Shown here: positions 107-38,148 of the stretch, piece after piece | Layout: each line of letters opens with the position of its first letter | Numbering within the stretch: position 1 is the first letter of the stretch | Assembly (NCBI GenBank): GCA_021203465.1 | Contig: JAJQBC010000043.1 | Coordinates: forward strand, 1-46,363 | Source: Lachnospiraceae bacterium | GTDB taxonomy: Bacteria; Bacillota; Clostridia; Lachnospirales; Lachnospiraceae | Length of the DNA stretch: 46,363 bases | Reading direction: 5' to 3' | Notes under the pieces: model-generated | Told to the model about the DNA's origin: nothing | Database searches by the model: none | The model's input: only the letters and a program-made list of their open reading frames with translations | Translations under genes and position numbers: made by a program

Positions 107-179
107 GGGGCATTAGCGCAGCTGGGAGCGCGCCACAATGGCATTGTGGAGGCCACGGGTTCGAATCCCGTATGCTCCA
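107..179 (+). tRNA. tRNA-Ala, anticodon GGC
   Basis: A full cloverleaf can be folded by eye. The acceptor stem GGGGCAT (107-113) pairs with ATGCTCC (172-178). The D stem is GCGC/GCGC (116-119/128-131). The anticodon stem is CCACA/TGTGG with loop ATGGCAT, giving anticodon GGC at 140-142. The T arm is ACGGG-TTCGAAT-CCCGT (155-171) and the discriminator base is A179. The third acceptor pair is G:T, the G3:U70 wobble that marks alanine tRNAs, which agrees with the anticodon (reads GCC). The 3' CCA is not encoded. Confidence 0.97.
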
Positions 180-15245: not shown

Positions 15246-16457
15246 TTACAGCTTTTCTTCTGCTATATCTCCATTTTGAAAATGCAGAAGCTTTCCCGCG
15301 CCCGTCCGTTCCGCGTAGGCACGATAGTCGTCAAGGCCTTTCCCTTCTACCGCGCGCAGCAACTCCACCTCTTTGCCCTGCCCGCGAAGCTCATTTGCGA
15401 GCGAAAGCGCCGCGGCACGCTCTTCCTCCTGATAGACAACGAGGATCCCTGTATGGTCTCCCTCGGATGCAAGGTCCTGCCTTGTAAGCGCGCTTAAGAG
15501 CTGGTCGACGACGACCGCAAAACCGACCGCAGGAGATTTCTTGCCGAAATGCTCAAGCAGTGTGTCGTAGCGGCCTCCCTTCACGACCGGCTCACCGGTG
15601 CCATAGGTATAGGCCTGGAACAGGATACCCGTGTAATACTTGTATTTGCTGACGATGCCAAAATCAAAGGAAACATAGCGCTCGTAGCCGTAGAGCTTCA
15701 GGATCTCATAAAGCTCTGCGAGACGATCCACTGCCTGCGCCCCTGTCATATTGACCGCGAGTGATTTCGCTTCATCGAGGACCTCGGAGGTCCCATAGAG
15801 ATAGGGCAGACGAATGAAGGCGCGCCGCACTGCCTCGTCGAGATCAAGGTTTGCGACAAATTCCTCCACGCCGAAATAATTCTTATTGGAAATGAGTTCG
15901 CGCAAGGTGAGCTCGTCCTCCTGCTGGATTCCTGCCTCCATCAGAAAGCTTTTGAAATAGGCGATATGGCCAACGCTCACCTGAAACTCCTTAAGTCCTG
16001 CGCTCAGCAGCGACTCGATCACAAGCGCGATGATTTCTGCATCCGCATCAATCGAGGCATCCCCCATCAGTTCCGCGCCGAACTGCGTGTTCTCCTTCAG
16101 GCGACCGCGGTAGCTCGCACTGTTGATAAAGGTATTTCCCATATAACACAGGCGAATCGGCAGATCCTCCTCGAGGAAATATTTGGACGCTGCGCGCGCG
16201 ATCGACGGTGTAAAGTCCGGGCGCAGCACAAGCGTATTGCCCTCCCGGTCGAAAAATTTGTAGAGCTCCTTCGAGGGAACCGTGCCGACCTCGCGGCTGA
16301 ATACGTCGAAAAACTCGAAGGTCGGCGTCTCGATATCGCGGTAGCCGTAGCGCCGCAGCGTATCGTGCAGCTGCTGCTGCAGGCGCAGCTTACGGCTGCA
16401 CTCCTCATTGTAGATATCCCGGACGCCCTCGGGCGTATGTAAAATCTGCTGGTTCAT
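15246..16457 (-). CDS. hisZ: ATP phosphoribosyltransferase regulatory subunit HisZ
   Basis: A 403-residue paralogue of histidyl-tRNA synthetase that lacks aminoacylation and serves as the regulatory partner of short-form HisG. The class II synthetase core is visible ([33 protein letters not shown]). The tRNA synthetase HisA motif region reads [20 protein letters not shown] with [12 protein letters not shown]. The C-terminal ~80 residues are divergent and short relative to HisRS. GAGGAG precedes the ATG at 16457. It is the first gene of the his operon. It lies downstream of recU, with the dispersed repeat and an eight-pair hairpin (16486-16505) between them, and I find no clear promoter there. 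Confidence 0.94.
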
Positions 16458-16505: not shown

Positions 16506-16521
16506 CACAAAATCTAAAAGC

Positions 16522-16658
16522 CCGATGTCTATGTATCCTTGCATGCAAGTACGTGTCCTAAAGGACTAACTGCGTGTCGTGCTCTTTAGAGTACTAACTA
16601 CGTGTCATGCTTTTTAGAGTATGCAGTCCACATAGCCGGCGCTGGGGACTTTTTTATA
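16522..16658. repeat. Dispersed repeat, copy A (with internal 28-bp tandem units)
   Basis: This segment matches 36907-37040. Shared parts are CCGATGTCTATGT; a 43-base core (16557-16599) that is 41/43 identical to 36946-36988; and a terminal part ATGCAGTCCACRTAGCC followed by a GGGAC-TTTT end. Copy A also holds two tandem 28-base units (16565-16592 and 16593-16620) that agree at 25 of 28 positions. The plus strand of the end can fold as GTCC...GGAC followed by six T, a terminator-like shape. On the minus strand the end is translated as VPSAGYVDC in the small ORF below. It lies between recU and hisZ. Confidence 0.85.
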
Positions 16659-16679
16659 GTAAGCCCAACGCTTTCCCAT
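16614..16679 (-). CDS. Putative 21-residue ORF coupled to recU
   Basis: The ATG at 16679 overlaps the recU stop by one base (TAATG), and the AAAGGAGAT in the last recU codons is well placed as its ribosome site. It encodes 21 residues, beginning MGKRWAYYKK and ending VPSAGYVDCIL, then TAA. The last ~11 codons come from the dispersed repeat and match the C-terminal tail of RsmD (VPDDGYVDCM). The ORF may be a real translated peptide or a by-product of the repeat. No function can be assigned. Confidence 0.45.
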   Translation of the reverse strand: MGKRWAYYKKVPSAGYVDCIL

Positions 16680-17242
16680 TATAAGCTATCTCCTTTATCT
16701 ATGTCAACCGGCGCCTCATTTTCCAAGTCGTAGCTCAGCGGCTTCAGATAAGGCACAAGGTAGCCGCCGTCGCTCTCAAAGAAATACGCCGGATCAAGCT
16801 CCTCGTAAAGGAAACTCTTCCTGCCGCCCTCCTGCGCCCGCTTCCAGAAGACCATGAGCTGACGGATATGGAGATAGTAAAATTTCTGTTCTGAAGTAAA
16901 ATGAATGATCAGGAAAGCCTTGCCGCCCTGCCGCTCGAAGTCTTCCATAAACTGAACCTGATGCTCGTGCACATTGTGTAGCGGGAAGGTGCGGACATGG
17001 CACTCCTTCGCGTCGAAACAGACGGGAATTCCCTGCACTGCCCCGATGTAGTCAACTGTGCTCTTCTGGTCAAAGTAGGCCAGCGTGATATGCCGTTCCT
17101 CCTTGTCGATCTTGATCGGCGTGATCGGGGTCGGCACCTTCTGGATCAGCGCGAGACCCTTCTGCCGGTAGCAGTCGTTTGTTCGGTTGATCAGCTCCTC
17201 CAGGGCGGAACCGCGGAGCCCTCTTGAATTCCAAGTAGCCAT
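16679..17242 (-). CDS. recU: Holliday junction resolvase RecU
   Basis: Cuts four-way DNA junctions during recombination and chromosome segregation in Firmicutes. The 187-residue protein has the family opening NSRGLRGSALEELINRTN, the KVPTPITPIKID strand and the nuclease core STVDYIGAVQGIPVCFDAKE. The likely metal-binding residues are D64, D77 and K79. D77 stands where Bacillus RecU has Glu in the E-A-K motif, a conservative change. FPLHNVHEHQV follows. GGTGA lies about 12 bases before the ATG. It is divergent from marR and has its own promoter. Confidence 0.93.
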   Translation of the reverse strand: MATWNSRGLRGSALEELINRTNDCYRQKGLALIQKVPTPITPIKIDKEERHITLAYFDQKSTVDYIGAVQGIPVCFDAKECHVRTFPLHNVHEHQVQFMEDFERQGGKAFLIIHFTSEQKFYYLHIRQLMVFWKRAQEGGRKSFLYEELDPAYFFESDGGYLVPYLKPLSYDLENEAPVDIDKGDSL

Positions 17243-36391: not shown

Positions 36392-36886
36392 TTACAGGGT
36401 GTCCCGTTTTTCTTTCATTTTCCTATGTACCGCTTCCGCTACCTTCTCCGGAATAAACTGGCTGATATCCCCGTCGAAGTATGCGACCTCGCGCACGGTC
36501 GTGGAGCTCAGATACGCATATTCCAGACTCGTAGTCAGAAACATGGTGTCGAGCGCGGGATACATCTTCCGGTTCGTCTGCGCCATCTGCAGCTCGTACT
36601 CAAAATCCGAGATGGCGCGCAGGCCGCGGACGACGACCGTCGAGTCGGTCTGCCTCGCGAAATCGACGAGCAGGCCGGAAAACGACTGCACGCTCACATT
36701 CGGCAGCTCCGCAGTCACATCCTTCAACATCGCCACGCGCTCCTCGATCGTGAAGAGCGGCGTCTTCCCGCCGTTATTCAGGACGCCGACGATCAGCTCG
36801 TCCACCATGCGTGAAGCCCTCTTCATAATATCCAAATGCCCGAAGGTCACCGGGTCAAAGCTGCCCGGATAAATTGCTCTGATCAT
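36392..36886 (-). CDS. coaD: Phosphopantetheine adenylyltransferase CoaD
   Basis: Transfers AMP from ATP to 4'-phosphopantetheine, the penultimate step of coenzyme A synthesis. The 164-residue protein has the usual length and motifs: [15 protein letters not shown] with the nucleotidyltransferase T/HxGH at 14-17, then [19 protein letters not shown] and [17 protein letters not shown] near the end. GGGGGAG lies five bases before the ATG. It follows rsmD on the same strand, as in the ylbH-ylbI pair of Bacillus. The 96-base gap between them is filled by repeat copy B. Confidence 0.97.
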
Positions 36887-36906
36887 TTTTTCTCCCCCTT
36901 CTCCGT

Positions 36907-37040
36907 CCGATGTCTATGTTTCCTTACATGCCCTAAAGGATTTATCCTAAAGGACTGACTGCGTGTCGTGCTCTTTAGAGTACTAGCTTCGCGTCGCAGG
37001 CATGCAGTCCACGTAGCCGTCGTCCGGGACTTTTATAATA
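36907..37040. repeat. Dispersed repeat, copy B
   Basis: The second copy of the element at 16522-16658, with the same order of parts. It has one copy of the internal unit where copy A has two, plus an extra CCTAAAGGA near the start. The 43-base core is 36946-36988 (41/43 identity to copy A). The end reads ATGCAGTCCACGTAGCCG, then GGGAC-TTTTATA. The minus strand of this end is the last 15 or so codons of rsmD, including its TAG stop inside the core. Like copy A it lies at a gene's 3' end, upstream of a gene on the same strand. Confidence 0.85.
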
Positions 37041-37576
37041 AAAACATGCTGGCTCGTTTTATATTTCTTATATTTATATGCCCGGAAGCCCAGCTCTTCC
37101 AGATATTCGAAACTGGTTCGCAGAGAAGCCTCCGTCACGATCACCGTATCCGCGTCTGCGAGTGTACTGTGCGCCAGATATTCCAGCACCTGCCGCTCCA
37201 GTCCCTGCTCATAAGGCGGATCCATAAATATAATGCCAAAAGGCTTCTGCCCCTCCATCCGCTGCAGCGCCGACTGCACGCTGCACTTCTGAAGCTCCGC
37301 CCGGTCGATCAGCTTTGTAAAGCGAAGATTTTCCAGAATACATGTACAGGCCTTCGGATTCTGCTCCACCAGAACCGCGTGAGCCGCGCCACGGCTCAGG
37401 GCTTCGATCGCAATCGCGCCGCTCCCGCTGAAAAGATCAAGGAAGCGGCAGCCCGGAATATCCGGCTGTAATATGTTGAACAAAGTCTCTTTTGTCTTGT
37501 CAGTAGTCGGCCTGGTGTCCAGCCCCTTCACCGTCCGAAGCGGCATACTGCGGGCTGTTCCTGCGATCACTCTCAT
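36983..37576 (-). CDS. rsmD: 16S rRNA (guanine966-N2)-methyltransferase RsmD
   Basis: A 197-residue SAM-dependent enzyme. MRVIAGTARSMPLRTVKGLDTRPTTD, split as the opening MRVIAGTARSMPLR and TRPTTDKTKETLFN, is family-typical. FLDLFSGSGAIAIEALSRGA is the SAM-binding motif and IIFMDPPYEQGL the catalytic DPPY. The normal protein ends around YKTSQHVFIIK. Here it continues VPDDGYVDCMPATRS, which is encoded by repeat copy B, so the repeat has replaced or extended the natural C-terminus. The ATG at 37576 overlaps the cyclo-ligase stop (ATGA) and follows GGAGGG. Confidence 0.95.
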   Translation of the reverse strand: MRVIAGTARSMPLRTVKGLDTRPTTDKTKETLFNILQPDIPGCRFLDLFSGSGAIAIEALSRGAAHAVLVEQNPKACTCILENLRFTKLIDRAELQKCSVQSALQRMEGQKPFGIIFMDPPYEQGLERQVLEYLAHSTLADADTVIVTEASLRTSFEYLEELGFRAYKYKKYKTSQHVFIIKVPDDGYVDCMPATRS

Positions 37577-38148
37577 CGAAATATCCCTCCGGGTGTCAGT
37601 ATACATTCTTCCGTCACAATCCTCTGCGGCAGAATGTCATGCTCCTCGAACGGTACCTCCGAAAAAAGCTGAAATTCAAAAGCAAGTGCTATATGTATCA
37701 GTTCCGGGTGGCGTTCCAGATAGCGATCATAATAGCCGCCGCCGTAGCCGACCCGATGACAGTACTCATCAAAAGCAACACCCGGCATGAGCATGAGACC
37801 CGTCTCCGTCTCGCACAGCGGACAGCCTTTCTTCGGCTCCATGATGCCAAAGCTGCCCGGCTCCAGATCATCCAGACTTTCTATAACATAGTAATACATG
37901 ACGCCGTCGCCGTCCACGCGCGGCGCGGCGACACGTTTCCCGTCCTGCCAGGCCTTATGCATCAGCGGCCGCGTCTCCACTTCCCGCTTCGCGTCCACAT
38001 AGGCCAGCAGAAGAGATGCCTCCTTATATTCCGCCAGCGCGGTGAAACGTTCCAATATCCGCGCGCTGGCTTCGTGCAGCGCTGTGAGATCCGCTTCCGC
38101 CCGGCGTTTCTTTACCTCCGCGCGAATCTCCTTCTTGGTCATCTCCAT
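37573..38148 (-). CDS. 5-formyltetrahydrofolate cyclo-ligase
   Basis: Converts 5-formyltetrahydrofolate to 5,10-methenyltetrahydrofolate using ATP. Motifs are TKKEIRAEVKKRRAEA at the start, SLLLAYVDAKREVET, MEPKKGCPL, and the signature GYGGGYYDRYLER followed by EHDILPQRIVTEE. About 190 residues from the ATG at 38148, which has GAGGG ten bases upstream. ATGs at 38175 and 38142 are alternatives. It is coupled to rsmD by a four-base overlap. Confidence 0.93.
   Translation of the reverse strand: MEMTKKEIRAEVKKRRAEADLTALHEASARILERFTALAEYKEASLLLAYVDAKREVETRPLMHKAWQDGKRVAAPRVDGDGVMYYYVIESLDDLEPGSFGIMEPKKGCPLCETETGLMLMPGVAFDEYCHRVGYGGGYYDRYLERHPELIHIALAFEFQLFSEVPFEEHDILPQRIVTEECILTPGGIFR

Follow-up and report, generated by a model that had tools for sequence, protein, structure and literature searches.

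Two dispersed repeats in a Lachnospiraceae contig as probable decayed copies of a MITE-like element that carries the Clostridiales-1 RNA in its intact form

Introduction

REP/BIME elements are dispersed intergenic hairpins, and in this they resemble the family of repeats described here; they differ from it in that its canonical subfamily has inverted ends and target duplications.

The closest described RNA is Clostridiales-1 (Rfam RF01699), which was rated by Weinberg et al. 2010 (PMC2864571) as a probable RNA that is probably not cis-regulatory, and the passages of that paper on Clostridiales-1 do not mention mobility. RF01699 is absent from the main text of PMC4081043, and, judged by title and abstract, none of the papers found on Clostridiales-1/RF01699 or on MITEs in Lachnospiraceae or Clostridiales describes Clostridiales-1 as mobile. 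In the genome studied here and in its relatives, full copies fit the model over its whole length. The two repeats considered in this study, copies A and B, have the outer stem and hairpin 1 of these full copies, but differ from Clostridiales-1 in having neither hairpins 2 and 3 nor a match to RF01699.

Prokaryotic MITEs, as characterised in the sections of PMC10969869 that deal with them, are shorter than 500 bp, have inverted terminal repeats, occur in many size forms with truncations and form stable stem-loops, and in all of these respects the present family is similar; they also have direct repeats, which are found here in the canonical subfamily. The family differs from the MITEs of those sections in its three or four separate hairpins and in folding that is biased to one strand, in a GC content of 0.47-0.64 in four aligned matches, so that it is not AT-rich, and in its nested modules, its in-place inversion and the lack of a parent insertion sequence in the genomes sampled. 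Rickettsia palindromic elements, in the account that the same source gives of them, are about 150 bp long and palindromic, like the repeats here, of which one case is also read in frame. However, many of those elements are inserted in frame inside genes, whereas here one insertion extends one gene.

Copies A and B

The window (the whole stretch of DNA analysed, 46,363 nucleotides of contig JAJQBC010000043.1 from a Lachnospiraceae bacterium) contains two elements of about 140 bp, copies A and B (Table 1). Their best ungapped pair of 43-mers, at 16554 and 36943, has 41/43 identities, for which the chance expectation in the window is about 2e-13. The two repeats with a shared 43-base core that had been reported in a preliminary description were thus located again at the same positions, and lie far above chance; the bounds given there (16522-16658 and 36907-37040) mark the right places but fall slightly short of the real extents. 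The same description had proposed a dispersed repeat, and further copies were indeed recovered from the organism's own draft genome (G000, 3.24 Mb in 158 contigs), in which a search with copy A gave 20 matches at E≤0.001. A short consensus gave 34 matches there at E≤10, several of which are pieces of one element or chance, and the exact core pattern was found in nine stretches across five Lachnospiraceae MAGs.

Table 1. Features of the window and end sequences of the two subfamilies
Feature	Position	Strand	Remarks
tRNA gene	107..179	+	Rfam match
Histidyl-tRNA-synthetase-like gene	15246..16457	-	downstream of recU
Copy A	about 16513..16661	-	probable decayed Clostridiales-1 derivative, hairpin 1 only; RNA strand is -
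Copy A, left end	16513..16553	-	hairpin 1 3' arm and 3' side of outer stem (GGGCTTTTAGA, RNA strand)
Copy A, tip of hairpin 1	16554..16622	-	filled with tandem units of ~28 nt; two units, 82%, 16559-16614
Copy A, right end	16623..16661	-	5' side of outer stem (TACTATAAAAAAGTCC) and hairpin 1 5' arm
21-codon ATG frame with VPSAGYVDC	16614..16679	-	MGKRWAYYKKVPSAGYVDCIL; ATG overlaps recU stop and -10 hexamer
Promoter-like TTGACA-18-TATAAT	16678..16707	-	matches 12/12 positions; overlaps recU 3' end
recU	16679..17242	-	187 aa, PF03838
Cytidylyltransferase-like (coaD-like) gene	36392..36886	-	other neighbour of copy B
Copy B	about 36903..37041	-	probable decayed hairpin-1-only derivative, tip filled
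Copy B, modules in hairpin 1 tip	36931..36998	-	
rsmD	36983..37606	-	last ~16 codons (KVPDDGYVDCMPATRS) supplied by copy B
Canonical subfamily end sequence			TGATRYYRGGGTCAAAAGG
Local subfamily end sequence			TACTATAAAAGTC

Relationship to Clostridiales-1

The shortest complete copies were imperfect palindromes of about 75-83 bp with the ends ATAAAAGTCC..GGACTTTTAT. Four longer copies (166-216 bp) had the same first hairpin and, within the same closing stem, two more hairpins, and it was two of these four that first matched RF01699. The gathering threshold of this model, 48 bits, was passed by 11 copies of the own genome; the five full copies of the local subfamily in that genome, which agree with copies A and B in outer stem and hairpin 1, scored 62.8-125 bits. 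Most of the letters conserved in the Rfam alignments belong to hairpins 2 and 3, and subfamilies differ in the closing stem and in hairpin 1. Of these parts, copies A and B have kept hairpin 1, with units of ~28 nt in its tip, and the closing stem, but not hairpins 2 and 3, and RF01699 gave no match to either copy even at E≤10, let alone one at the 48-bit threshold. What places them in the family is therefore the arms that they share with other copies, along with intermediates found elsewhere in the set of sites: the arms are the same as those of copies that pass RF01699, and short and full forms occur at the same orthologous sites, both of which point to common descent of the outer stem and hairpin 1.

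Matches of copy B to the Guanidine-III and SpF61 models were below the gathering scores of these models and were taken as chance. In a survey of 61 genomes, RF01699 was matched in 27 (21 over the cut-off), with 0-35 matches per genome, a patchy distribution. Head-to-tail arrays, in which the Clostridiales-1 matches lie nearly end to end, were seen at L085 (G013:C66, three matches) and L088 (G052:C6, two matches).

Occupied, empty and inverted sites in relatives

The flanks of 13 sites, namely those of copies A and B and of 11 chosen copies elsewhere in the own genome, were compared with five relatives (G001, G008, G011, G012 and G014). Both flanks were found for 42 of the 65 possible site-relative pairs; 33 of these were empty, seven were occupied and two carried small remnants, with site C20 in G014 and G001, where 15 extra AT-rich bases are present, scored as empty. 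Twelve of the 13 sites lacked the element in one or more relatives; at the remaining one, C83, G014 has a small remnant with both ends. A direct search matched the joined flanks to relatives as one piece at many of the 13 sites, and alignments were made for nine. The family thus shows, in the 33 empty pairs, the insertion polymorphism with empty sites that characterises MITEs. The site of copy A was empty in all four of the closest relatives in which both flanks were found, and that of copy B in three of four (G011, G001 and G014), the other, G012, having a clean, short, hairpin-1-only form.

Different forms of the element also occupied the same site. At C8s, G008 has a full element, the own genome a hairpin-1-only form, G011 a 37-bp remnant, and G014 and G001 nothing; at C20, the own genome has a full element, G008 has hairpin 1 with a module, and G012 has hairpin 3 only, with a module. 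At C83, the own element (L072) and that of G011 (L199, G011:C73:14200-14900) represent the same insertion in opposite orientation, 179/185 bases being identical when one is inverted and 79/181 when it is not, and a 24-nt module lies at the same internal place in both. The G011 element at this site includes two extra hairpin modules of ~50 nt, and that of G014 (L198) keeps both ends only. Beside the element at L064 (own C63), the left flank carries a separate small hairpin (AGATGTCCGCCAATACGGACATCT) that is apparently absent in three relatives.

Terminal repeats, target duplications and the search for a mobiliser

The copies are short, bounded by inverted terminal repeats and apparently without coding capacity, no long frame having been seen in them. 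A search with the canonical 5' end in one genome of the same genus and three of the same family returned 38 matches, 30 of which were read as loci for 330 bases and proved to be RNA-bearing, short or remnant forms, some of them cut by contig ends. Many canonical elements continue beyond the Rfam model with a fourth hairpin, after which the 5' end recurs in inverted form (TGATACCAGGGTCAAAAGG / CCTTTTGACCCCAACATCA). At 19 distinct canonical sites defined by a strict pattern (element lengths 70-79 or 195-212), the 5-bp target duplication was perfect in 13 and had at least four of five positions matching in 17; 20,000 shuffled pairings gave a mean of 1.43 perfect duplications and a maximum of 8, and the observed 13 lies beyond every shuffle. 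The G019 subfamily, with 4/7 perfect duplications, is within reach of its shuffles (mean 0.71, maximum 5) and is only suggestive. None of 19 entries of the local TAAAAGTC subfamily, in which some sites were entered twice or in several species, had a target duplication, the same as in the shuffles, and this is a result against a uniform picture.

The combination of TG..CA ends and 5-bp duplications is reminiscent of DDE families, among them IS3 and IS21. No autonomous transposon with matching ends was seen in the end scan of the own genome, at the 30 of 38 canonical ends read in four relatives, in the frames flanking remnants or in viral contigs. In the own draft genome, TACTATAAAAGTC with one mismatch allowed gave 19 matches (14 for a backwards control) and no kilobase-spaced inverted pair, and a Pfam scan of eight frames beside seven canonical remnants found no transposase domain. 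The two exact canonical end sequences were absent from the viral contigs, and the plasmids searched with a copy of the local subfamily gave no match. The canonical element was detected, at about 80-96% identity, in 16 unannotated gut virome records of 4-10 kb (MT837314.1, MT837121.1 and 14 others), contigs which may be phage-borne or host DNA. A Cas1 gene is the neighbour of one canonical remnant, L277 (G024:C5).

Alternative explanations

The preliminary description had seen the same GYVDC peptide at the 3' ends of two genes, after recU and fused to RsmD, which would suit a unit like the Rickettsia palindromic elements that inserts in frame and donates VP..GYVDC to host proteins. The RsmD tails are what speaks for it: the rsmD frame, with its stop at 36983, runs into copy B and reads KVPDDGYVDCMPATRS, the RsmD of G012 ends in KVPDGGYADCMLTCKDA, and VP..GYVDC is found in one of the three frames of the element's right end. 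Yet RsmD tails of element-free relatives vary between 4 and 21 residues after a conserved QHVF-type end, so that tail variation is ordinary there, and the second gene does not take part, as the recU stop (16679-16681) precedes copy A and recU is not extended. The 21-codon frame with VPSAGYVDC that follows it is judged to be no gene, its ATG overlapping the -10 hexamer of the promoter-like site. At 32 distinct right ends, the loci then examined, 29 had no reading-in frame of at least 60 codons, and the three exceptions were copy B, the same insertion in G012, and L011, where the frame is in a different phase, has no Pfam match and runs antisense to a solute-binding-protein gene. Outside the insertion shared by copy B and G012, the right ends examined number 30, and not one extends a recognised gene. 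What had been put forward as a property of the family is thus one insertion, in two species, instead of frequent in-frame insertion with a conserved peptide, and this tally largely refutes the donation of a peptide, which we consider exceedingly improbable. The VP..GYVDC tail is real for RsmD only, where the insertion overran the end of the gene; it is a by-product of one insertion and not a conserved peptide.

A second alternative is a role as RNA. A pattern similar to the promoter-like site at the end of recU was found in 14 of 15 recU loci, the own one included; judged from its sequence, this site probably drives the downstream his-type gene, and copy A, just downstream of it, would then probably lie in the leader of that gene. 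Together with the typing of RF01699 by Rfam as an sRNA gene, this position could indicate that selection has retained a functional small RNA or a leader element at both genes, which would reflect the true function of Clostridiales-1. Folding of 35 of the 43 RF01699 loci (eight weak ones, L075 and L095-L101, were omitted) points in the same direction: the Rfam strand was more stable than its complement in 34, with a mean difference of 12.4 kcal/mol, although the copies are related and the tests not independent, and in 32/33 once two loci below the gathering score were dropped, and the count of G-U pairs was 85 versus 39. However, what agrees with the small RNA suggested in the preliminary description is the Rfam family of the relatives of copies A and B; these copies themselves have neither the two most conserved hairpins, nor an RF01699 match, nor the strand bias. 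Of seven short forms, four fold more stably on the RNA strand, and A, B and C97s on the opposite strand. That their sites are empty in most of the close relatives also argues against such selection, which seems improbable. A bidirectional transcription terminator, with a GTCC..GGAC hairpin followed by a T-run and spread as a useful terminator, would fit the presence of the ends ATAAAAGTCC..GGACTTTTAT on both strands and their retention in the remnants L223 and L231 and in G014 at C83. A simple scan for sites resembling intrinsic terminators found none at copy A or copy B, however, and the ORF tables place the RNA strand in the same direction as neighbouring genes in some own copies and opposite to them in others, results which also tell against the antisense terminator proposed earlier. 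At copy A, moreover, a terminator would cut a gene off from the promoter that is present at almost all of the recU loci, and we regard this explanation as very improbable.

A proposed history

We consider it very likely that copies A and B are old, decayed insertions, internally both deleted and rearranged, of a small MITE-like, non-autonomous mobile element, the intact form of which carries Clostridiales-1. The earlier interpretation holds to the extent of a dispersed, inserted, palindromic element with one copy read as an RsmD tail, but without the donated peptide and the antisense terminator. The intact element would consist of the three-hairpin Clostridiales-1 RNA enclosed by inverted terminal repeats, and would owe its movement to a transposase acting in trans, probably one of the TG..CA-end kind. 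The ancestor of copy A may have inserted into a leader, directly downstream of the promoter overlapping recU, and that of copy B over the 3' end of rsmD, and because the latter overran the old end of the gene, the element now supplies about 16 codons of the frame. The palindromes would then have decayed in place, presumably from full to short at A and B as well, with hairpins 2 and 3 lost, perhaps by replication or repair at the palindrome, and with short tandem modules, of a kind also present in the hairpins of other copies, filling the tip of hairpin 1. The loss of whole hairpins while the outer stem is kept, down to remnants like L223 and L231, would fit deletion within palindromes.

If the interpretation as a MITE-like element is right, what Rfam lists as an orphan "sRNA gene" would better be regarded as the main part of a mobile element, with consequences for the annotation of its many copies in Lachnospiraceae-type genomes and for the view of how its covariation may have arisen. 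Orthologous sites are at hand for its arrival, its inversion, the loss of hairpins and the nesting of further insertions, so that the mobilising enzyme and the reason for the strand-biased folding become testable. Some caution is also needed, in that protein tails encoded by elements should not be taken as conserved peptides. A further idea, which we offer tentatively and think rather unlikely as a whole, is that Clostridiales-1 is a mobile element that needs its folded strand in order to move, with selection keeping the hairpins on one strand, while the element flips in place and its tips and loops are colonised by hairpin modules of 24 nt and about 50 nt that leave the outer fold intact.

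Nested modules

Other copies carry, in hairpin 1 or 2, a 24-nt module (GCGACGCGAAGCTAGTCCTTTAGG, RNA strand) that is related to the ~28-nt units of copies A and B. When up to three mismatches were allowed, a 20-nt pattern of this module had 14 matches in 5 of 17 genomes of the genus, and a backwards-pattern control had nine over the 17, so that the number of weak matches means little; eight of the 14 had no or one mismatch. Inspected by eye, ten of the matches lie clearly in elements of the family and two in degenerate ones (G011:C93:23834 and own C106), a further match (own C140) belongs to another kind of repeat, and the last, in G002, looks like chance. The repeat that encloses the module in own C140 (L159, C140:21128) is itself structured. 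The second module, of about 50 nt, had 18 matches in 5/17 genomes and none with the control; 12 overlap RF01699 matches, four more are in elements by eye and two are outside. At L250 (G012:C90, about 447-475), the ~50-nt module lies outside any Clostridiales-1 element, apparently where the reading frame of a gene is shifted or broken.
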